NCBI RefSeq assembly: GCF_001969365.1
Contig: NZ_CP019312.1
Location: forward strand, 744,001 to 808,000
Length of the DNA stretch: 64,000 nt
Reading direction: 5' to 3'
Source: Tateyamaria omphalii
Lineage (GTDB): Bacteria; Pseudomonadota; Alphaproteobacteria; Rhodobacterales; Rhodobacteraceae
Part shown: piece after piece, positions 9,247 to 19,185 of the stretch
Layout: each line of letters begins with the position of its first letter
How positions within the stretch are numbered: the stretch's first letter is position 1
Made by a program: the position numbers and the translations under genes
Notes under the pieces: model-generated
What the model saw: the letters and a program-made list of their open reading frames with translations, nothing else
Told to the model about the DNA's origin: nothing
The model's database searches: none

Positions 9247-12200
9247 TCACTGCACTTGCGCGCTGTCGCTTTGGATCTTCAGTTTCCAATCCTCAATCAA
9301 CGTCCCTTCGGTCTTCAGACGGCTGGCAAGATAGTAAAGCCGCTGGGTCGCCGGCCCGGTCGGGGCCGTTTCGAACCGCTGCTTGAGGTAGTAGGGCGGG
9401 ATCGCCTGCGAATAGAGCGTGGCCGACACCGTCACGCCGCTTGCGTCCACGCCAGAGGGCAGGGTGATCTTGTAGGTCAACTCGTCCTTGCCCGCCTTGA
9501 CGCCCGCATCATGTTCGGCACGCCCTTCGGGCATCGTGGCTTTCATGAACGCGGCGGTAACCTCGGAGTCTCCGAACCGGGCCTTGAACGCGTCCGTGCC
9601 GGGCTCCTCCGCGCCCCAGGGCAGCAGGCGGTTGTCCTTGGGATGGTAGACCCGGTGCACAAAGCTGGAGGTGAACTCCTTTTTGGCATTCTGCGTCAGT
9701 TCTTCATAGATCTGTACCTGGGTTTCATCGTCGATCAGGTTGTGATGCGGCTGGTAAAGCGCTTCCGTCGCGCCCTCGGGCACGTAGTCCAGGAACTCGG
9801 TCTTGAGCGGCTTGCCGTCCGGCCCGATGATCACGCCCGCACCGTTTGTGCAGCCGGAACACCAGACCTGCGCGCCGCTTGCATCCGTCACCTTCACCTC
9901 AAGGAATGCGCGCCGGAACCCGACGCCGGACGGCAGGCGGTGCCCGGTCTTGTTGTCGACGCTCACGACTGCCTCAAGCACACCATCCGCCGCTGTCAGG
10001 CGTTCGATGGCCACATCCGCCGTCTCGTCCCGCGCCTGCAGCGCCATCGTGTCGAGCGACAATTGCGCCCCATTGGTGGCGTAGGTCATCGGGTCCTTGG
10101 GGCTCATGCCCATCTCTTCGTCGAATTGTGACAGCATCTCGACCATGAAGGCGTTGAGACCCACGAAATTGTGCCGTTTGTAGTCGTCGCGGAAGGGCAC
10201 ATCCAGCTCCTCGTGCGGCAGCGCGTTCGGCACTTCGGGCAGGTTTGTGTCCTGAATGCTGGCGATCTGTGTGGTCAGGCTGCCGATCTTGATACGGCCG
10301 TCCCGCGTCTCGAAATTGCTCTTCATGTGGCAGTCCTGGCAGGACTGCGCGGTGCCCGCGTCGGCAAACTGGCTGTTTTGCCATTCCAGGAATGTCGCCT
10401 GTTCGACCGAGTGCTGGAACTGCACGAGCGGCTCGCGATAGGTCACGCCGAACTCGTCCTTGAGAAAATCCACTGCATTCTGTGCCGACTGGTTCAAAAC
10501 CGCCTGCTCTTCGACCGTGAAGCCGGGCAGGGGCGTGTCCGTGGCCCAATCCACATTGGGCAGGTTGATCGTGTGGCAGGCGCCGCACATCTCGCTGTCG
10601 GTGATGTAGTCATCATGCAGGGGCGTGATGCCCATGGCGTTCTGCATCGGTTTTTGGCGCACGTCGGAAAACGGACCGATCAACTCATTGGCCGGGTTGG
10701 TGCGGAACACACCCGTCGTGCCGTTCATCAGATAGGTGTCGAGCGTGTTGTAGTCGGGCTGCCCCTCGGCCCGTTCCGGTGGGGCGATGTGGTGGCACAC
10801 GGCACAGGAGATCCCCTCGCGCGCAAGGTTGCCGTATTCGTGGTACTCGAACGTCCCGTCCGCGATCTGCTGCTCTTTCTCGGCCTCGGTCAGCGGATCA
10901 TGCAGCAGCGTGTAGGCGACTTTGAACGTGTTCCCGTCAAGGCCGCTTTCGGGATCGGCATGTGCGTCGATCTCAAGCTGGCGCTGGCCCATCGCACCGT
11001 GACAGGACAGGCAGGTGGTGCCCAGGTTTTCGGACAGGTCCCCGACGCCGGCCGCGTCCAGCAGGGCAAATTCGGATTCGAGCTGCGCATAGAAAATCGG
11101 ATCTCGCCCGGCCAGACCCATGGGCGACCAGCGCCATTCGCCATATTCCGAGATGTTGTAGCCGTCCCCGTATTTGGGTCCGTCCTTGATGAACATGGTC
11201 ACGCCCGACGGCGCACCGCCCAGGCCGCCGTGGCAGCCCAGGCAATTGTCCGATGTCAGGAAATGCTGGGTGTCGTCGGGACGGGCAGGTACGTGGTCCA
11301 GCCACTCGCTGGGCAGGGTCTGCAGGTTGGCACGAGTGATATCGACACCGCCGGTGCCTGGGAACATGTCGATGAATGCCTTGTTCTGATTGACGGGCGA
11401 TGCCTTGGCCGCGGCGACATGGGCGGCGCGCATGGCCGCAGGGTCGTGGGGGTCGTTCACATAGGATTTGATCATCTCTTCAAGGCTGGCGCCAAAGGCA
11501 GGCTTCTGCGCCATCGGCAGGTCGCGCCAGCTTTCGTCCACGCGGTAGATCACCGGCTCGCCCGGATACCCCTCGATGTTTTCAAGCGCGGAAAAGATCA
11601 ACTCCTCGGCGGCAGAGGCATGGCAGCGCATGCACATCCCGTCACCACCCGCGCCAAGGGGTGGGCTGTAGGGGGGCTCGAACGTGTCGATGACCGGCAT
11701 GCGCGCCTCCATCCCCGCCTTGTCCGCGAAATAGACCGAGGCAAAGAACCAGCCGCCATGCGACAGCGCACTGTCCTTGACCATCACGGTCCAGTTCAGC
11801 TTGCCATGGTCATAGGCGTATTTCGCCATCTCCTCTGCGACCTTTCCGGGGTCATTGGGATGCTTGGCGACAAGGCTGGCGTAATATTCGTTGTAGCGGG
11901 CCGACGGTGGGGTCACCATTTCCTTGACCACGATGGCCCCGTCGGCGATGGCGCCTTGCCGTCCCCCTTCAAGCCACGCCATGATCTCGGGCGAGTAATA
12001 CATGCGCACCGCAGGGTGGACGCCAAAGCTCATGTCGAACACGAACGGGCCGGTATCGCGCCAGCTTTTGTCCCGTTTCCACCCCAGCCCCACATATTCG
12101 CGCTTTGCGATCCACGGAAACAATACGTTCTCGTAGTCGATCAACGGCAAGGTGCTCGGCAACGGCAACTGGGCGCTCTGCGCCGCGTGCGCGACCTCTT

Positions 12201-12267
12201 TGGCTGATGTGACATGAGAAAAGGAAAACAGGGCGAACAGGACGGTGGCGAGAAATCGGGCGCACAT
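9247..12267 (-). CDS. Large secreted multihaem cytochrome c (six CXXCH)
   Basis: A 1006-residue periplasmic electron-transfer protein. I chose the ATG at 12267, which has GGAG at 9 bases and is followed by a signal peptide (about 1-22); upstream in-frame starts would give a non-secreted N-terminus. Six haem-attachment motifs are visible in order: CMRCH, CLGCH, CLSCH, CAVCH, CGACH, CQDCH. A seventh cysteine pair (CSGC) lacks the histidine. The C-terminal third, beginning near GHRLPSG, is a beta-rich domain often attached to multihaem cytochromes. There is no linked maturation system, quinol dehydrogenase or terminal reductase. The gene stands alone, with a long upstream region shared with divergent dps. 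Substrate or partner unknown. Confidence 0.85.
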   Translation of the reverse strand: MCARFLATVLFALFSFSHVTSAKEVAHAAQSAQLPLPSTLPLIDYENVLFPWIAKREYVGLGWKRDKSWRDTGPFVFDMSFGVHPAVRMYYSPEIMAWLEGGRQGAIADGAIVVKEMVTPPSARYNEYYASLVAKHPNDPGKVAEEMAKYAYDHGKLNWTVMVKDSALSHGGWFFASVYFADKAGMEARMPVIDTFEPPYSPPLGAGGDGMCMRCHASAAEELIFSALENIEGYPGEPVIYRVDESWRDLPMAQKPAFGASLEEMIKSYVNDPHDPAAMRAAHVAAAKASPVNQNKAFIDMFPGTGGVDITRANLQTLPSEWLDHVPARPDDTQHFLTSDNCLGCHGGLGGAPSGVTMFIKDGPKYGDGYNISEYGEWRWSPMGLAGRDPIFYAQLESEFALLDAAGVGDLSENLGTTCLSCHGAMGQRQLEIDAHADPESGLDGNTFKVAYTLLHDPLTEAEKEQQIADGTFEYHEYGNLAREGISCAVCHHIAPPERAEGQPDYNTLDTYLMNGTTGVFRTNPANELIGPFSDVRQKPMQNAMGITPLHDDYITDSEMCGACHTINLPNVDWATDTPLPGFTVEEQAVLNQSAQNAVDFLKDEFGVTYREPLVQFQHSVEQATFLEWQNSQFADAGTAQSCQDCHMKSNFETRDGRIKIGSLTTQIASIQDTNLPEVPNALPHEELDVPFRDDYKRHNFVGLNAFMVEMLSQFDEEMGMSPKDPMTYATNGAQLSLDTMALQARDETADVAIERLTAADGVLEAVVSVDNKTGHRLPSGVGFRRAFLEVKVTDASGAQVWCSGCTNGAGVIIGPDGKPLKTEFLDYVPEGATEALYQPHHNLIDDETQVQIYEELTQNAKKEFTSSFVHRVYHPKDNRLLPWGAEEPGTDAFKARFGDSEVTAAFMKATMPEGRAEHDAGVKAGKDELTYKITLPSGVDASGVTVSATLYSQAIPPYYLKQRFETAPTGPATQRLYYLASRLKTEGTLIEDWKLKIQSDSAQVQ

Positions 12268-12484
12268 GAAATTGTCTCCGGTATCGAATACCGGCAGAAT
12301 GCCACCTAAACGAGAATTTGTATACGCAAAGATTCGCCGATGGCGTGTAATTTTAAGCAAAATGGTGCTCTTGCCGTCTTGGCGCCCTTGAAGTGACGGG
12401 GTGGCGAACCAAAAGGCGGCGCTGTGCGCGCAGGCCGCGTCTGCCACATCCGACATGCGGCCTGCCGGATTTCGCCGAAAAAAC

Positions 12485-12509
12485 GGAACTCTTGCGCGCC
12501 TGTCCCGTT
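12485..12509 (+). promoter_or_regulatory. EcfG-type promoter of dps
   Basis: GGAAC at 12485-12489, a 16-base spacer and CGTT at 12506-12509, an exact match to the alphaproteobacterial general stress sigma factor pattern. It sits about 35 bases before the dps ATG. Confidence 0.8.
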
Positions 12510-12543
12510 GAATGGGTAACGTAACCAATCGACGGAGATCACA

Positions 12544-13041
12544 ATGGCCGATGCCCTCAAAGTAATTCCCAAAAGAAACGACGTTTCAACCGGCGTGCAG
12601 GATACCAAGGCGGTCGCAACTGGTCTGTCTGACGTTCTGGCAGATACATATTGCCTGGTGTTCAAGACCCACGCGTATCACTGGAACGTCGAAGGACCTC
12701 TATTCTATTCGGTCCACAATCTTACGGAAGAGCACTATTCGAACATGTTCGAAGCCGCCGATGAACTGGCCGAGCGTATCCGCGCACTGGGCGAGTTGGC
12801 ACCCTCCGCACTGAAGGATGTGGTAAGCCGGTCGCGGGTTGAGGATGCCGAAGGTGAGATGTCGACGGCTGACATGGTGGAGGATCTGGCCGCAGATCAC
12901 GAACGGATCGCGCATCGTCTGCACGCGCTGGCCGAACTGGCAGCCGAAAACCGCGATATCGTGACCGAGGATCTGGCCACCGAACGGTCTGCCTTTCACG
13001 AACAAGCTGCATGGATGCTGCGTGCAATCGCCAAAAGCTGA
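12544..13041 (+). CDS. dps: Dps family DNA-protection / iron-storage protein
   Basis: Ferritin-like protein of 165 residues that oxidises and stores iron and can coat DNA during stress. The ferroxidase helix motif THAYHWNVEGPLF and the acidic segment around FEAADELAERIR provide the Dps signature. Length is normal. A perfect EcfG-type promoter lies just upstream and an intrinsic terminator just downstream, so it is a single-gene unit of the general stress regulon encoded next door. Confidence 0.93.
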   Translation: MADALKVIPKRNDVSTGVQDTKAVATGLSDVLADTYCLVFKTHAYHWNVEGPLFYSVHNLTEEHYSNMFEAADELAERIRALGELAPSALKDVVSRSRVEDAEGEMSTADMVEDLAADHERIAHRLHALAELAAENRDIVTEDLATERSAFHEQAAWMLRAIAKS

Positions 13042-13046
13042 ATATG

Positions 13047-13082
13047 AAAAGACCCCGCCGGACCGATCCGGCGGGGTCTTTT
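13047..13082. terminator. Bidirectional terminator between dps and phyR
   Basis: Sixteen-base-pair perfect stem (AAAAGACCCCGCCGGA and its complement) with a four-base loop, A-tract on one side and T-tract on the other, between two convergent genes. Confidence 0.9.
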
Positions 13083-13101
13083 ACGACATGACGACAAGGT
13101 T

Positions 13102-13917
13102 CTAGGCTCTCAGCGTCTCGGTTGACGAAAAGAACATCGCCTGGCTGACAGCGGATTTCACTTGCGCCTCTGTGTACGGTTTCGAGATGAGGAACGCCGG
13201 TTCGGGCCCTTGCCCGGTCAGCAGCCGCTCGGGGAAGGCGGTGATGAAGATGACCGGAAGGTCGCCTTGCACGCCCAGAATGTCATTAACCGCATCAATC
13301 CCGCTTGAATTGTCGGCGAGTTGAATGTCCGACAGGATCAGGTCGGCGCTTTCTTCGCCGGCCAGTTGCACGGCGCGGTCACGGGTCCGGGCAATCCCGG
13401 TCACCCGGTGGCCCATATCGGCAACGATGGATTCCAGATCCATCGAAATGATGGCCTCGTCTTCGATGATCATCACGCGACCGGACACGTGCTGGCTCAT
13501 TTCGGCATATGCGATGTTGATCAACTCCTGCGCTTCCTCAAGGGGCGCATCCATGACCTTTGCGACCTCAGCTGGCGAAAACTCCTCGACCGTGTGCAAG
13601 AGCAGCGCCTCGCGGGTGTTCGGTGTCAGCTTTGACAGATGGTCGCGGGCCTTTCGGGCGATGCCCGTGACATCTGAATCGTTGCCGAACACGGCGCCCG
13701 ACGTGGTCCAGATGGCGTGAAAACTGCGGAACAGTGCCACTTTGGCATCTGAACCGCCCTCGTATTGATCGGGATTTGACAAGATCGCTTCAAGCGTCGC
13801 GATCGCATACGTGTCGCCGCTGTCCTGGCTGCCTGTCAGCGCCCGCGCATATCGACGGAGGTAAGGAAGGTTCGCGCCCACGTCGTCCGCGAGCTGCTCC
13901 CTAGCGTCTTTGTTCAT
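13102..13917 (-). CDS. phyR: PhyR, general stress response anti-anti-sigma response regulator
   Basis: 271 residues. The N-terminal half (about 1-140) is a sigma-factor-like domain that mimics EcfG; the C-terminal half (about 146-271) is a receiver domain with acidic residues near IEDE (151-154), phosphoacceptor D197 in LSDIQ, and the conserved lysine in SKPYT. When phosphorylated, PhyR sequesters NepR and frees EcfG; this is established for the family. It is divergent from nepR-ecfG, and an EcfG-type promoter precedes it, giving positive feedback. The cognate kinase is probably the one encoded at 14734-16485. Confidence 0.95.
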   Translation of the reverse strand: MNKDAREQLADDVGANLPYLRRYARALTGSQDSGDTYAIATLEAILSNPDQYEGGSDAKVALFRSFHAIWTTSGAVFGNDSDVTGIARKARDHLSKLTPNTREALLLHTVEEFSPAEVAKVMDAPLEEAQELINIAYAEMSQHVSGRVMIIEDEAIISMDLESIVADMGHRVTGIARTRDRAVQLAGEESADLILSDIQLADNSSGIDAVNDILGVQGDLPVIFITAFPERLLTGQGPEPAFLISKPYTEAQVKSAVSQAMFFSSTETLRA

Positions 13918-13944
13918 TTTGTTTGCCTTTTTTGACTTAGTCTT

Positions 13945-13969
13945 GGAACCTTACGCGCGGCCATGCGTA
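13945..13969 (+). promoter_or_regulatory. EcfG-type promoter of nepR-ecfG
   Basis: GGAAC (13945-13949), a 16-base spacer and CGTA (13966-13969), about 47 bases before the nepR ATG. The last base differs from the CGTT consensus. It implies autoregulation by EcfG. Confidence 0.75.
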
Positions 13970-13977
13970 TTGGTTCC
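13952..13977 (-). promoter_or_regulatory. EcfG-type promoter of phyR
   Basis: Minus strand: GGAAC (13977-13973), a 17-base spacer and CGTA (13955-13952). It overlaps almost entirely with the opposite promoter of nepR-ecfG, so the two share a palindromic region bounded by GGAACC and GGTTCC. Confidence 0.75.
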
Positions 13978-14015
13978 GTCAGACGCACATAAAATTAATC
14001 GAGAAACCAAACCCG

Positions 14016-14192
14016 ATGACACGGCAGAACCACAAGACAGAGATCGACGCAGAGATCGACGCGAACCTCAAACGCGCCTTCGACACCCTCGCAAAGGAGC
14101 CCGTGCCAGACCGGTTCACGGACTTGCTCAACCAGTTGCGGACCGGAAACGCACAGACGTCTTCGGACAAGGGAGACCGCCATGACGACTGA
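14016..14192 (+). CDS. nepR: NepR, anti-sigma factor of the general stress response
   Basis: A 58-residue protein. The core NLKRAFDTLAKEPVPDRF is the NepR motif that grips either the EcfG sigma domains or PhyR. It lies between phyR and ecfG as in most alphaproteobacteria. Its stop codon overlaps the start of ecfG by 11 bases, so the two are co-translated. The short acidic C-terminal tail is not conserved. Confidence 0.93.
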   Translation: MTRQNHKTEIDAEIDANLKRAFDTLAKEPVPDRFTDLLNQLRTGNAQTSSDKGDRHDD

Positions 14193-14730
14193 CCCGCGCG
14201 ACGAGTTGGTCGAACATTTGGGTCCGCTCCGTGCCTTCGCACTCAGCCTGTGCAGGAATTCTGCAACGGCGGATGATCTGGTGCAGGAAGCCCTCATCAA
14301 GGCATGGACCAATATCGACAAGTTCGAACCGGGTTCGAACATGCGGGCCTGGCTCTTCACCATCCTGCGCAACACCTATTACTCGCTGCATCGCAAGCGC
14401 AAACGCGAGGTCGAGGATGTCGACGGGGCCTATGCCGATACCCTGTCGCAAAAACCGGATCACGACGGGCGGCTGGCCATGCGGGATTTCGGTGTCGCAT
14501 TCGACCAACTCAACGACGAACAACGCGAAGCACTGGTGCTGGTCGGTGCAGGCGGCTTTTCTTACGAGGAAGCGGCAGAGACATGCGGTGTTGCCGTCGG
14601 CACCATCAAAAGCCGCGTGAACCGGGGCCGCGCGCGGCTGGCAGAGCTGATGGCGGTGGACGATCCCGACGATATCGAGTTGACGGACAGCGTGACTGTG
14701 GGGATCGTTTCAGCCCAAAACATGGCGTAG
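14182..14730 (+). CDS. ecfG: EcfG, general stress response sigma factor
   Basis: Extracytoplasmic-function sigma factor of 182 residues. Region 2 (about 10-75) carries DDLVQEALIKAW and the region 2.4 stretch NMRAWLFTILRNTYYS; region 4 (about 110-165) has the helix-turn-helix FSYEEAAETCGVAVGTIKSR. It starts within nepR and is followed 3 bases later by the kinase gene. EcfG-class factors recognise GGAAC-N16/17-CGTT, and such sites are found before several genes in this island. Confidence 0.95.
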   Translation: MTTDPRDELVEHLGPLRAFALSLCRNSATADDLVQEALIKAWTNIDKFEPGSNMRAWLFTILRNTYYSLHRKRKREVEDVDGAYADTLSQKPDHDGRLAMRDFGVAFDQLNDEQREALVLVGAGGFSYEEAAETCGVAVGTIKSRVNRGRARLAELMAVDDPDDIELTDSVTVGIVSAQNMA

Positions 14731-14733
14731 TTC

Positions 14734-16485
14734 GTGGCACAAGACAGGTTGACACGCGGGCTTTTCGTGCGCTTGGCCGGGCTGATGACCTTGGCCCTGT
14801 TCCCGTTGGGCGCAATCGCGCTGTGGCAGACCAATGAAGTGGTGAGCGCCACGGTCAGACTGTCCGAAGAGATTGTCCTGTCACAAACCGAGCGGGCCGC
14901 CGCCAGTGAACGGCGCCTGCTGGAACGGGGCCGGGGCGCAGCCGAAGGGCTGGCCGCGCTGTTGGGCCCTGTTGCCGGCGATGCCGCTCAATGTTCCGAG
15001 ATGATGGCGCGTTTTGTGAGCCGTCAGGACACGTTCGTCTTTGCCGGGTTCATCGGTCGGGACGGGATGATGGAATGCACATCCAACGGTGTCACCTTCG
15101 ACTTTGCAGATGATCCAAGTTTTGCCCGCGCCATCGAGCAGGAGGGGCAGATCTTTGAAGTGAACCTGTCAGGCGTCGCAACGGGCGATTCCGTGGTGAT
15201 CATCAGCAATCCGGTTAAGATCGACGGCAGGTTCGCAGGCTTCGTCTCCCTGTCAATGCCGCACGAAACGGCAAAACCGCCTGCCGCTGGCCTGACCGAA
15301 GACAGCCGGTTCGATCACGTCACGATCAACCGGGCCGGCCGCATTCTGTTTTCCTCGCGCGAACTGTCCTCTGCCGGGGGCATCCTCCCGACCGACACGG
15401 ATCCGACAGCGTTCCTCGAGCGCGACGGCGAAACGTTCCTCGCACGGTCGATTGACGGACGTGAACGGCTGTTTGCCATCGCGTCCATCGTACCGGGCGA
15501 GGTGGTCGTGGTCGGATCATGGTCCACGGGCCGCACGTTGAACAGCCTTGGAGCGACACCCGTTTGGGTGCCGCTGCTCTTTCCCGTCCTGATGTGGTTT
15601 GCGGGGCTTGCCGTGGCTTTTCTTGGACTGCACCGTCTGGTGATCCGCCATATCTACGCCCTGCGCCGATCCATGCGGCAGTTTGCGCTGGGCCAGCGCG
15701 ACGAGCCGGGATTGCAGCTTGATGACCCGCCCGCCGAATTCGAAGTGCTCGAAACCTCATTCAATCGCATGGTCTATGCTCTGACCCACGCGGAACGTCA
15801 GGCGGAACAGGATCTCAGTGAAAAGACAATCCTGCTGCGTGAAATACACCACCGGGTCAAAAACAACCTGCAACTCATTGCGTCGATCATGAATATGCAC
15901 GCGCGTGCCGCCAAAACGCCGGAAACGCGGGCCTTGCTGTCTCAACTTCAGCAACGGGTACGCGGCCTCGCGACCGTTCACCAGACGCTGAATGCCGACA
16001 CTGACGATTCCACCGTCGATGCGCAAAGCCTGATCCGGCGGCTGGTCAGGGAATTGATCCCCATGGCCGATGCTCTGAAACGCGACATCCAGACCACCAC
16101 CGACATTGCACATGTTCAGTTGGGACAGGATCAGGCCGTCACGCTGTCCATGCTGGCGGCGGAGGCGTTGACCAACGCCGTCAAGTATATCGACGCCCCA
16201 CAAGGCCAGCCGCTGACCCTGGACATCTCGCTCACACAGGACAATGCACAGACACTGACGTTCACGATCATCAACTCCATCGGTCAAGGATCCGATCGAA
16301 CACCCGATATGATGGAAAGCACCGGCATCGGTACGCGCCTGATGCGCGCCTTCGTCGCACAGCTGGACGGAGAAGAAAGCCGCGACGAAACCGAGACGCA
16401 TTTCACGTACAGCGTCACCTTTTCCCTGACGGAGGTCGCGCCCGAAGCACCGAAACTATGGGCGCAACCGCACGCGACCGGATAA
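14734..16485 (+). CDS. Membrane sensor histidine kinase, HisKA_2/HWE type (PhyK-like)
   Basis: 583 residues with a GTG start 3 bases after ecfG. Transmembrane helix 1 (about 13-31), periplasmic sensor region (about 32-275, resembling a Cache fold), helix 2 (about 277-302), a HAMP-like linker, then HisKA_2 with the phosphorylation motif REIHHRVKNNLQ (H372 or H373) and a HATPase domain (about 450-570, with AAEALTNAVKY and GIGTRLMRAF). Kinases of this class phosphorylate PhyR. Its place in the nepR-ecfG operon makes it the probable PhyR kinase, triggered by an unknown envelope signal. Confidence 0.9.
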   Translation: MAQDRLTRGLFVRLAGLMTLALFPLGAIALWQTNEVVSATVRLSEEIVLSQTERAAASERRLLERGRGAAEGLAALLGPVAGDAAQCSEMMARFVSRQDTFVFAGFIGRDGMMECTSNGVTFDFADDPSFARAIEQEGQIFEVNLSGVATGDSVVIISNPVKIDGRFAGFVSLSMPHETAKPPAAGLTEDSRFDHVTINRAGRILFSSRELSSAGGILPTDTDPTAFLERDGETFLARSIDGRERLFAIASIVPGEVVVVGSWSTGRTLNSLGATPVWVPLLFPVLMWFAGLAVAFLGLHRLVIRHIYALRRSMRQFALGQRDEPGLQLDDPPAEFEVLETSFNRMVYALTHAERQAEQDLSEKTILLREIHHRVKNNLQLIASIMNMHARAAKTPETRALLSQLQQRVRGLATVHQTLNADTDDSTVDAQSLIRRLVRELIPMADALKRDIQTTTDIAHVQLGQDQAVTLSMLAAEALTNAVKYIDAPQGQPLTLDISLTQDNAQTLTFTIINSIGQGSDRTPDMMESTGIGTRLMRAFVAQLDGEESRDETETHFTYSVTFSLTEVAPEAPKLWAQPHATG

Positions 16486-16507
16486 CCCCGCACGGGCCGG
16501 TCGACGG

Positions 16508-17257
16508 CTAGATCAACGGGCGCTGGTGGATATTGTCGGGGTCGATGCCCGACAATTCGGCCAACGCCTTTTCATCGAGAATGCGCAATATCCCGTTGCT
16601 CCAATGCGCGATCTTCCTGTCCTTCAACTTCGCCAGCGTCTTGTTGGTGTGCACGAGGGACAGGCCCAATGCATCGGCCAGATCCTGTTGGCGAAAGGGC
16701 AGGGGACATGTGTTGTCCTTGTGCAGATCAAGCGAACGGGCCCGGCGATAAAACCGATGCAGGCTCCAGCCGATCTTTTCCAACGCGCCGCGCTGGCCAA
16801 CAGTGGTCAGCGCATCGCCCAGAAAATGCTCCTCGACCGCAGCGATGTGGGTCAGGGCAAAGGCACGTTCGGGCTGGTTCTGGAACAGCTCGAACACCCG
16901 GCTGCGGTTAAAGACGCATAACCGCATCGGTGTCGTCGCCTCAACCGAGTGGCACATCGCATCAAGCACGCTCGCCTGCAATCCGATGAAATCGCCCGGC
17001 GTCACAAAGCCGATCACCTGACGTCGCCCGTTCTCCAGTGTCTTGTAACGTATCCCCATACCCGACAGTACGGTGAACAGCTGCGCCGCACGTGCGCCCT
17101 CCATGAACAGTTGCGTGCCTGAGTCTGCAACCATTTCGCCGGTTTTGAAGCGGTTCATGAACGCAACCTCCTCCGACTTGAACGGCAGAAAACCGTCCTT
17201 GCGTCGCAGCGGACAGTTGTCACAGCTGATTGTCGAAATATCACCTTGGTATGTCAC
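16508..17257 (-). CDS. Crp/Fnr family transcriptional regulator
   Basis: 249 residues. cNMP-binding-like beta barrel (about 40-150) and winged helix-turn-helix (about 180-230, with FRQQDLADALGLSLVHTNKTL). The N-terminus has CDNCPLR with cysteines at 12 and 15 but not the full cysteine set of an oxygen-sensing FNR; two further cysteines occur near 100 and 113. Whether it binds an iron-sulfur cluster is uncertain. I used the GTG at 17257. No EcfG promoter was found. It is convergent with the kinase gene. Confidence 0.88.
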   Translation of the reverse strand: MTYQGDISTISCDNCPLRRKDGFLPFKSEEVAFMNRFKTGEMVADSGTQLFMEGARAAQLFTVLSGMGIRYKTLENGRRQVIGFVTPGDFIGLQASVLDAMCHSVEATTPMRLCVFNRSRVFELFQNQPERAFALTHIAAVEEHFLGDALTTVGQRGALEKIGWSLHRFYRRARSLDLHKDNTCPLPFRQQDLADALGLSLVHTNKTLAKLKDRKIAHWSNGILRILDEKALAELSGIDPDNIHQRPLI

Positions 17258-17323
17258 AGTTTATTGCTCCCCTGAGCAGGCACATGGAATGAGGACGTCA
17301 AACGAAAACAAGAGCGAGATTTG

Positions 17324-17722
17324 ATGACCGTGCGCACATGCCGCGATCACAGGTTTTCTGTGGTCATCACCCCAAATTTTGTCGAAGCCGAAGATGTCTC
17401 GGACGCGTTGCGCCGGGCCGGTTTCGATGACGTCGTTCACTTTCGGTCTATTGAACATGCCGCTACCGAACTTGCGGGCGATGCCCCGTTGCCGGCATTT
17501 GCGATCCTGTCGTTTCACGGCCCTGACGACGCGGCGGACGCATTGTGCGCGCGACTGCATCACGCAGGTTGCCGTCAGGTTCTGATCGACGGCGATCCCG
17601 CGCGCGCCCCCGCTCTGCATGCCGCGTTCCTGCGACGCCCCTACTCCAACACCCAGCTGGATCGGTGCATCGCGGATCTCATGCGGGACGGGCCGTCCAC
17701 AGGCGGCACACATCAGGCGTGA
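17324..17722 (+). CDS. Degenerate receiver-like protein
   Basis: 132 residues from ATG 17324 (a TTG directly precedes it). The pattern of a response-regulator receiver domain can be followed: VVITPNFVEAEDVSDALRRAGF as strand 1 and helix 1, then FAILSFHGPDDAADALCARL where the phosphoacceptor aspartate would be (serine here), then LRRPYSNTQL resembling the KP(Y/F) end. With the acidic pocket missing it cannot be phosphorylated normally. There is no output domain. Its position in the stress island suggests a decoy or scaffold related to PhyR signalling; that is inference. Confidence 0.6.
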   Translation: MTVRTCRDHRFSVVITPNFVEAEDVSDALRRAGFDDVVHFRSIEHAATELAGDAPLPAFAILSFHGPDDAADALCARLHHAGCRQVLIDGDPARAPALHAAFLRRPYSNTQLDRCIADLMRDGPSTGGTHQA

Positions 17723-17731
17723 TCACGCCAG

Positions 17732-17911
17732 CTACCCCTGCGGCTCAATCATCTGTGCGTCATCGTCAACCAGCGCGGCATCGTCGTCCATGCTGGAATA
17801 GACATTCGCCACGAAAAAGAAGCCCGCGACCAAGACGACCGCTCCGATCCCGGCCAGGACAAACCAATGCTTGCGTGTCTGGGTTTCAATGTTTGTGTCG
17901 GGTGCCGACAT
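17732..17911 (-). CDS. 59-residue single-pass membrane mini-protein
   Basis: ATG at 17911 with GGAG 8 bases upstream. A hydrophilic N-terminus (about 1-15), one strong helix (about 16-37, FVLAGIGAVVLVAGFFFVAN), then an acidic tail (DDDAALVDDDAQ). I know no family. An exact EcfG-type promoter (17970-17946) is placed 35 bases before the start. It is thus a likely member of the general stress regulon; a role at the inner membrane is inferred from the helix. Confidence 0.7.
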   Translation of the reverse strand: MSAPDTNIETQTRKHWFVLAGIGAVVLVAGFFFVANVYSSMDDDAALVDDDAQMIEPQG

Positions 17912-17945
17912 CTTCCGTCTCCTTGTCATTCTGCGTTGTGGGCTT

Positions 17946-17970
17946 AACGCTCGAACCAGCGCGGAGTTCC
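17946..17970 (-). promoter_or_regulatory. EcfG-type promoter of the 59-residue membrane protein
   Basis: Minus strand GGAAC (17970-17966), a 16-base spacer and CGTT (17949-17946), an exact consensus match ending 34 bases before the start codon. Confidence 0.78.
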
Positions 17971-18062
17971 ATGTGCCATGTGTCAGATGACATTCAGGCT
18001 TGGTGCTGGCGCATCCCGTGATGACCACGGCAAAGCCTTGGCGTGTCGTGCAAATCGCAATT

Positions 18063-18087
18063 GGAACCAAAAGAAGTGCGTGGCGTT
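18063..18087 (+). promoter_or_regulatory. EcfG-type promoter of the FNT channel gene
   Basis: GGAAC (18063-18067), a 16-base spacer and CGTT (18084-18087), an exact consensus match 32 bases before the chosen ATG at 18120. It also argues against the longer frame that begins at 18000. Confidence 0.78.
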
Positions 18088-18119
18088 TCGCATCAAACGG
18101 CTCGGTTCAGGATATTGGT

Positions 18120-18956
18120 ATGACGCAGACATCTTCTTCCCCCCTCGTCGAAGAGAAAGTCGAAGACGAGGCGGTCATAGAAGCGTCCGGCCTGTCGCCC
18201 CGTCTGATCTTTGAAACCATTCGACGTCATGGCGAAGAAGAGTTGAAGCGCCCCCTCAATACGCTCTTCTGGTCCGGCATCGCCGCAGGCATTCTGATCA
18301 GTTTTTCTGTCCTGGGCGAAGCATATCTACGCGCATACCTGCCCGACGCCGATTGGCGTTTCATTGTCGAAAACCTTGGCTATTCGCTGGGCTTTCTGCT
18401 CGTCATTCTGGGGCGGATGCAGCTGTTCACGGAAAATACGATCACCACCGTTGTCCCCGCTGTGATTGACCCGTGCCGCGCGGTTTTTGTCCGTGTCGCA
18501 ACGCTCTGGTCGGTGGTCCTCTTTGCCAACATCATCGGCGCCTTCCTGATCGCGACCTTTCTTGTCTACACACCCGTTCTGACGCCTGACCTCCTCGCCA
18601 TTGTCACGGACCTCAGCAAGCACGCGACAGGCTTTTCGCCGGTCGAGGGGCTGGTGCGCGGCATTCCCGCAGGCATCCTCATCGCCGCCATCGTCTGGAT
18701 GCTGCCATCGGCGCAGAACAACGAAGTGCTCCTGATCATCATCTTCACATGGCTGATTGCACTGGGCGACTTCACCCACATCATCGCGGGTTCGGTTGAA
18801 ATGGCAGTGCTGGCCGTTCAGGGGATGATCAGCGCACCGCAGGCCGTGTTCAGGTTTTTCCTGCCAGTCCTGGTCGGCAACGTCATCGGCGGCACGGCGG
18901 TGTTCACGATGATGACCTACGCCCAAATCCGGCCCGAGATCGACGAGACAGAATGA
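18120..18956 (+). CDS. FNT-family channel, YfdC-like
   Basis: Formate/nitrite transporter family membrane protein of 278 residues with six helices after a 45-residue acidic cytoplasmic N-terminus. The central pore histidine is visible in LGDFTHIIAGS, the form seen in the YfdC branch and not the FocA/NirC branch. Start chosen at 18120 because an EcfG promoter lies inside the longer frame. A strong hairpin follows the stop. The substrate of this branch is not known to me; a monovalent anion is expected from the fold. Stress regulation is inferred from the promoter. Confidence 0.88.
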   Translation: MTQTSSSPLVEEKVEDEAVIEASGLSPRLIFETIRRHGEEELKRPLNTLFWSGIAAGILISFSVLGEAYLRAYLPDADWRFIVENLGYSLGFLLVILGRMQLFTENTITTVVPAVIDPCRAVFVRVATLWSVVLFANIIGAFLIATFLVYTPVLTPDLLAIVTDLSKHATGFSPVEGLVRGIPAGILIAAIVWMLPSAQNNEVLLIIIFTWLIALGDFTHIIAGSVEMAVLAVQGMISAPQAVFRFFLPVLVGNVIGGTAVFTMMTYAQIRPEIDETE

Positions 18957-18958
18957 AA

Positions 18959-18980
18959 CAGGGCGCCCGAAGGCGCCCTG
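18959..18980 (+). terminator. Hairpin after the FNT gene
   Basis: Nine-base-pair perfect stem with a CGAA loop directly after the stop, between convergent genes. No T-run follows, so it may be a weak intrinsic terminator or an mRNA-end stabiliser. Confidence 0.6.
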
Positions 18981-18986
18981 CATGTC

Positions 18987-19130
18987 TTACCCATCTTTCG
19001 CGAGGCTCGATTTCTCCGCGTCCGGATCCTCCAGGCGCGCCTCTGTGCGTCGCTTGCTCAAATAGGCCCAACCCAAAACCAAACCAAAGGTCAGCGCAGG
19101 CAGGACAATGATAAGTGCTTCGATGTTCAT
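18987..19130 (-). CDS. 47-residue single-pass membrane mini-protein
   Basis: ATG at 19130 preceded by AAGGA at 7 bases. One helix (about 4-24, ALIIVLPALTFGLVLGWAYL), then a basic stretch (SKRRTEAR) and an acidic tail. By the positive-inside rule the tail is cytoplasmic. Unknown family. An exact EcfG-type promoter lies upstream (19185-19161). Together with the 59-residue protein it gives two membrane mini-proteins flanking the FNT channel gene, each with its own stress promoter. Confidence 0.68.
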   Translation of the reverse strand: MNIEALIIVLPALTFGLVLGWAYLSKRRTEARLEDPDAEKSSLAKDG

Positions 19131-19160
19131 ACCGTGTCCTTTCTCGTTGCTCGGGGAAGG

Positions 19161-19185
19161 AACGCGCGTTTTCCATCAGTGTTCC
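19161..19185 (-). promoter_or_regulatory. EcfG-type promoter of the 47-residue membrane protein
   Basis: Minus strand GGAAC (19185-19181), a 16-base spacer and CGTT (19164-19161), an exact consensus match ending 30 bases before the start codon. Confidence 0.78.

Follow-up and report, generated by a model that had tools for sequence, protein, structure and literature searches.

The PhyR-NepR-EcfG core of the Alphaproteobacteria consists of three proteins and a HisKA_2 kinase, with phyR divergent from nepR-ecfG and with EcfG-type sites ahead of these genes. Whether the partner switch fires depends on how PhyR and NepR are balanced, and to our knowledge it is an open question how this balance persists while EcfG, an extracytoplasmic function (ECF) sigma factor, induces all three genes. 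The same components are present in a 64,000 nucleotide stretch of Tateyamaria omphalii (NZ_CP019312.1, positions 744,001 to 808,000), referred to here as the window, in which the block at 12485-19185 is, judged from its sequence, the general-stress-response core locus, of the alphaproteobacterial type, of a Tateyamaria-like roseobacter. It differs from the described core in that both predicted core promoters are interlocked here, whereas they lie apart in the eight loci from other families that have motifs in both directions. A 33 bp palindrome separates phyR from nepR, and the locus is probably centred upon it as a single EcfG promoter that is read both ways.

Sigma-70 bidirectional promoters (Warman et al. 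2026, PMC12825309) offer a parallel. In the portion of that paper available, pseudo-symmetrical DNA gives two possible polymerase orientations, one excluding the other, both directions share one -10 element, and the starts are most often 18 bp apart. The palindrome is similar in its symmetry and in its two possible orientations, one of which would exclude the other given the 18 bp overlap of its two sites. It is unlike these promoters in having its own -35 and -10 for each direction, predicted starts approximately 31 bp apart, and a sigma factor that would be of the ECF type and act on the genes that control it. Here the two directions have distinct -10 boxes, 10 bp from each other, in place of the shared -10 element described for the class, so the palindrome is like the sigma-70 bidirectional class rather than a member of it. 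No description of an ECF-sigma bidirectional promoter with interlocked -35/-10 pairs was found in the literature searched, which covered few subscription journals. Two things are new here: a palindromic and probably bidirectional promoter for EcfG at the centre of the switch, and a second stress island.

Duplicated components have been described for Sinorhizobium meliloti (RsiA1/RsiA2 and RsiB1/RsiB2, in the available part of PMC4814048), and the genome studied here likewise carries a second PhyR and further copies of NepR. Unlike those duplicates, these are set within 64 kb that have 23 EcfG-type sites and also encode a diverged EcfG-like protein and paralogues of the core locus's outputs. 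According to the accessible text of the 2018 report on Rhodobacter sphaeroides (PMC5830050), no further member of the Rhodobacterales had by then been analysed for PhyR.

The palindrome between phyR and nepR

Genes were called from a Pfam profile search of the window proteins with the family cut-offs applied, NCBIfam serving as a second library. The features at the centre of the locus are:

13102..13917, minus strand, phyR, anti-sigma antagonist (PF22029, PF22233, PF00072)
13945..13977, both strands, 33 bp palindrome, putative interlocked EcfG-type promoters
13945-13969, plus strand, nepR-ward promoter-like site; spacer 16, CGTA; -10 to predicted start 46 bp
13977-13952, minus strand, phyR-ward promoter-like site; spacer 17, CGTA; -10 to predicted start 34 bp
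14016..14192, plus strand, nepR, anti-sigma (PF18557, 8.7e-14)
14182..14730, plus strand, ecfG, sigma (PF04542, PF08281; NF009198 exceeds its cut-off); overlaps nepR by 11 bp
14734..16485, plus strand, HisKA_2 histidine kinase (PF07568); 3 bp downstream of ecfG

PhyR has its sigma-like and receiver domains, with all three families above cut-off, NepR adjoins the EcfG-type ECF sigma, and sites of the GGAAC-N16/17-CGTT type are present upstream of the core genes, the core variants carrying CGTA. EcfG shares 99% identity with its counterpart in Tateyamaria sp. syn59. Since only 3 bp separate the kinase gene from ecfG, it probably shares the nepR-ecfG operon.

The nepR-ward and phyR-ward sites share 18 bp within GGAACCTTACGCGCGGCCATGCGTATTGGTTCC. 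Each -10 is positioned 2–3 bp inside the -35 of the opposite promoter, and the two -10 boxes are 10 bp apart. Transcription is expected to start 6–7 bp past the -10, which is the basis for the predicted distance between the divergent starts. Although the original prediction, made from the letters of the window, listed the phyR and nepR-ecfG sites as two, they are one interlocked element.

Conservation of the palindrome

The surroundings of phyR were compared in 80 related loci, which are the best 80 of 192 and so are biased toward near kin; by their titles these are mainly from genera of the Rhodobacteraceae, with some metagenome-assembled genomes labelled just Alphaproteobacteria. Both strict motifs are present in 39 of these, and in all 39 the two are offset by 7 bp, with spacers of 16/16 (n=25), 16/17 (n=8), 17/17 (n=5), and 17/16 (n=1). 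The GGAAC...GTTCC frame, 31–33 bp in length, is found in 77 of the 80 loci (absent from L060, L092, and L113), these lengths being what spacers of 16–17 bp require. In six loci (L057, L058, L061, L065, L067, and L072) both -10 boxes read CATT rather than CGTT, the two arms having changed alike.

To escape the near-kin bias, 120 genomes, one per genus, were drawn evenly from across the Rhodobacteraceae. Matches to PhyR at E<=1e-40 are present in 54 of these 120 genera, and the stress core is thus patchy across the family. There are 58 such matches, of which the second PhyR of the window's genome and fragments in G496 and G415 were dropped, leaving 55 loci, with three genomes contributing two loci each. 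A divergent nepR or ecfG is present at 53 of the 55, and the dyad is present in 49 of these 53, the window's own locus included, with a length of 32 bp (n=27), 33 bp (n=15), or 31 bp (n=7). The four divergent loci without it are G393, which by eye has a form with one mismatch, G448b, which has a dyad of 30 bp, G407, and G416. Neither of the 2 loci that have no divergent nepR or ecfG was found to carry the dyad. A stricter form of the dyad occurs in 57 of 295 genera, at a single place in each genome, against 1 match to the control across all 295, and at all 30 of the family strict-dyad loci that were checked the dyad is flanked by phyR to one side and by nepR, ecfG, or both to the other.

Outside the family the arrangement is different. 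The 29 top-scoring phyR loci from among 125 genomes with a match, 27 of them being outside the Rhodobacteraceae, were scanned for motifs with a relaxed -10, and the 31–33 bp dyad is present in none of these 27 loci from other alphaproteobacterial families, although two carry a GGAAC...GTTCC of 27 bp. A nepR or ecfG match is on the opposite strand at 19 of the 27. Motifs in both directions are present at 8 of the 27, where they are side by side with starts at least 31 bp apart; in 6 of these 8 a divergent nepR/ecfG was detected. One other-family genome has a strict dyad adjoining a distant relative of PhyR.

An inverted repeat might instead be the operator of a dimeric regulator, a repressor or activator of both genes, and not two promoters at all; the retention of the GGAAC/GTTCC frame even where the -10 boxes drift would be in keeping with this. 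Against it, the conserved bases are those of the EcfG -35 and -10 boxes of both strands taken together, the length ranges over the 31–33 bp that the spacers permit, two EcfG-like sites are found side by side in the same intergenic region in other families, and the arms show no further symmetry that is significant. The first eight positions of the spacer and the six positions after the -10 carry 0.02–0.27 bits each at 194 distinct ordinary EcfG-like sites. At 106 core sites, which come from related loci and hence do not count as independent, the content is 0.5–1.6 bits in 13 of the 14 flanking positions, which read out the opposite promoter. Because the flanks conserved only in the core read the opposite promoter, interlocked promoters are a better fit than the operator of a regulator, which is quite unlikely.

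A putative promoter read both ways

The motifs, their fixed interlocked geometry, and their wide conservation in the family are seen in the DNA itself and in its comparison between genomes. From these we infer that EcfG would recognize both halves, that docking would be mutually exclusive, and that this would set the ratio of PhyR to NepR/EcfG output. RNA polymerase bearing EcfG would bind these 33 bp facing either way, with rightward initiation giving NepR, EcfG, and probably the kinase, and leftward initiation giving PhyR. The footprint of the EcfG-polymerase should exceed 33 bp, and therefore the element would be occupied in one orientation at a time. The ratio of PhyR to NepR/EcfG would then be set by the relative strength of the two halves and not by the level of EcfG. 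Dps, the formate/nitrite transporter family (FNT) channel, and two proteins of 59 and 47 amino acids encoded in the block are further likely outputs of EcfG; these would make up little of the predicted regulon, with more sites in the second island.

We are evenly divided on a stronger form of this proposal, in which the control node of the sigma factor itself would, in the Rhodobacteraceae, have shrunk to a single palindromic docking site and the EcfG-polymerase would choose at each docking between the liberator (PhyR) and the captor together with itself (NepR-EcfG), such that exclusivity would fix the PhyR:NepR ratio at every level of EcfG and cap the total output. If this is so, the palindrome would be a device of DNA geometry that controls stoichiometry and noise in a partner switch.

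Several observations weigh against a promoter that couples the two directions. Only one of the strict motifs is present in 28 of the 80 related loci, and neither is in 13, although 21 of the 28 loci with a single motif keep the -35 of its partner intact with one mismatch in the -10. Outside the consensus the arms are not significantly symmetrical, with 135 of 2,000 shuffles reaching the observed value, and the core sites with conserved flanks are, as said, related. In R. sphaeroides, as given in the accessible text of PMC5830050, membrane stress raised ecfG mRNA and not phyR mRNA, which does not suit simple coupling, and the promoter on the nepR side is described as being opposite the phyR coding region. 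For the sigma-70 bidirectional promoters, the available portion of PMC12825309 has basal activity too low for competition between directions, which compete only when activity is raised.

These last promoters, which do not compete at basal activity, are also in keeping with the possibility that both of the promoters here are real and that their overlap is mere compaction, the intergenic region being short, with no regulatory effect, or that a single direction is used. Such compaction would suit the distance of approximately 100 bp between the starts of phyR and nepR in the window, as well as the imperfect half in 28 of the 80 loci. It accounts poorly for the 7 bp offset in every one of the 39 loci with both strict motifs and for the wide conservation of the dyad in the family, and is rather unlikely. 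If the palindrome is indeed read both ways, its presence at the majority of the family phyR loci that were surveyed, and at 0 of 27 from other families, would make the question of the PhyR/NepR balance testable with a few base changes.

EcfG-type sites in the block

The remaining sites and genes of the block, and an open reading frame beside it, are:

9247-12528, minus strand, open reading frame of 1,093 amino acids
12485..12509, plus strand, dps promoter-like site; GGAAC-N16-CGTT; -10 to predicted start 34 bp
12544..13041, plus strand, dps, ferritin-like (PF00210, 2.7e-25)
in the block, Crp/Fnr-type regulator gene, crp (Pfam)
17324-17722, plus strand, protein of 132 amino acids without a Pfam or NCBIfam family
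17732..17911, minus strand, protein of 59 amino acids of an MSAPxTN... family; one hydrophobic stretch by eye; no family above cut-off
17946..17970, minus strand, promoter-like site of the 59-aa gene; GGAAC-N16-CGTT; -10 to predicted start 34 bp
18063..18087, plus strand, promoter-like site of the FNT gene; GGAAC-N16-CGTT; -10 to predicted start 32 bp
18120..18956, plus strand, FNT channel (PF01226, 164.5 bits)
18987..19130, minus strand, protein of 47 amino acids; one hydrophobic stretch by eye; no family above cut-off
19161..19185, minus strand, promoter-like site of the 47-aa gene; GGAAC-N16-CGTT; -10 to predicted start 30 bp

With the pattern GGAACN{16,17}CGTW there are 6 matches in the window, all within 12485-19185 and zero elsewhere. 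This agrees with the six GGAAC-N16/17-CGT(T/A) sites originally predicted, as do the four exact matches with a 16-base spacer (12485+, 17946-, 18063+, 19161-) and the placing of the sites 30–50 bases before start codons, which here are 30–46 bp ahead of the predicted starts.

That the six sites are chance matches is highly improbable, although the pattern is rarer in the whole genome (4.3 Mb) than its backward reading, with 103 matches against 244. Because of this there is no overall enrichment, and the abundance of the motif across the genome is uninformative; it was dropped as evidence, and place and clustering are informative instead. It counts further in favour of chance that, when the boxes are put in 1,680 orders with the true order among them, 88 orders give at least 6 matches over the whole window, so that the window-wide count alone is unremarkable. 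Within the block, at least 5 matches are given by the true order only. Dinucleotide shuffles of the window have a mean of 1.39 matches, with 0 of 100 reaching 6. When the two clusters are removed from the genome 74 matches are left, one per 57 kb, from which 0.117 would be expected in the block where there are 6 (Poisson P 3e-9; the P values apply to regions picked after looking). The genome-wide search that had been suggested as a check thus supports the clustering. Also arguing against chance are the positions of the sites ahead of starts, their conservation across the related and family-wide loci, and the negative controls within the locus, given below.

Two neighbouring proteins can be remarked upon by eye. 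The 1,093-aa open reading frame, divergent from dps, has several CxxCH motifs and is likely to be a multihaem cytochrome, and the 132-aa protein resembles a receiver domain minus the usual aspartate.

Candidate outputs

Strict sites were sought from -160 to +30 of the gene start in the 80 related loci. The 59-aa gene has such a site in 18 of the 21 loci that were compared, which makes its product a conserved candidate output. The others are less well supported than originally claimed, with 14 of 29 for dps, 11 of 20 for the FNT gene, and 4 of 6 for the 47-aa gene; of the three named Tateyamaria that are closest, two (L037, L039) are without the strict dps site. The controls from within the locus are ecfG (0/80), the kinase (1/67), crp (0/43), and the 132-aa gene (0/19).

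The prediction that some of the outputs would be undescribed has held for the two small proteins, whose families are without a name. In an alignment of 17 members of the 59-aa family, M1, A3, P4, Q11, and H15 are invariant. The 59-aa protein has 324 relatives and the 47-aa protein 140, with no Pfam domain among the 120 listed for each. Both were judged by eye, from the one hydrophobic stretch, to be probably in the membrane. The only matches that might have named them are below cut-off, the best from NCBIfam being Psb34 at 19.9 against 45 bits. These two unnamed families are conserved candidate stress outputs in a marine group with a little-studied stress response.

The FNT channel is like its family in its Form_Nir_trans domain (PF01226, 164.5 against a cut-off of 34.6 bits) and in its nearest solved chain, the formate transporter 3kly (2e-8). 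It is unlike the curated members in being under the fnt and FocA cut-offs (53.4 against 290.1 bits for FocA, TIGR04060; also under that of TIGR00790). No prior report of an FNT channel as an EcfG target was found in the literature searched.

A second stress island

The block was originally predicted to be a self-contained stress module with its own outputs. The stress module itself is upheld by PhyR, NepR, the ECF sigma, and the HisKA_2 kinase, with their own promoter-like sites, but it is not self-contained. Approximately 380 kb away, at C1:314550-378728, a 64 kb run has 23 sites where 1.1 would be expected. It encodes PhyR2, 61% identical to PhyR1, NepR2 (PF18557), two further NepR-like proteins that only blastp detected, an EcfG-like protein that has diverged (36%), a second HisKA_2 kinase (33%), FNT2 (57%), and, for the 59-aa and 47-aa proteins, paralogues at 42% and 48%, respectively.

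In the 75 kb scanned around this island there are 24 sites, and 21 of them have a predicted start no more than 96 bp away. Behind them are genes for Pmp3, CsbD, DUF7218/Rho_N, PRC-barrel, PLD, SDR, and SSF proteins, gluconate-dehydrogenase subunit 3, aldehyde dehydrogenase, DJ-1, HlyD, and entericidin.

Among 19 further genomes from the genus, a close PhyR2 (90%) is confined to G691, where an intact dyad is kept between phyR2 and a NepR paralogue. Between the second island and G691, 18 of 22 comparable sites are kept, with boxes 98% and spacers 82% identical, against 31 of 63 for permuted-box controls, with boxes 94% and spacers 93% identical; the control matches came from all over the stretch, for the most part from coding DNA, and their background therefore differs. 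In the window's genome the dyad copy on the phyR2 side has lost the -35 of one arm and has a NepR-like open reading frame alongside. No more than 120 bp ahead of the NepR-like open reading frame at 3603 of L032, a piece of the second island, there is, by eye, an apparent decayed dyad with its left arm GGAACAAAACGC intact and its right arm damaged, and it precedes a run of NepR-like, EcfG-like, and kinase genes.

The FNT2 site (L032:10791-10824) ends just 7 bp from the predicted ATG, which would suggest either a leaderless mRNA or a later start. Among the genes behind sites is also a LuxR-type regulator with an autoinducer-binding domain (L032:15475-16239, plus strand), its site being 82 bp ahead, which may indicate a link between the stress response and quorum sensing.

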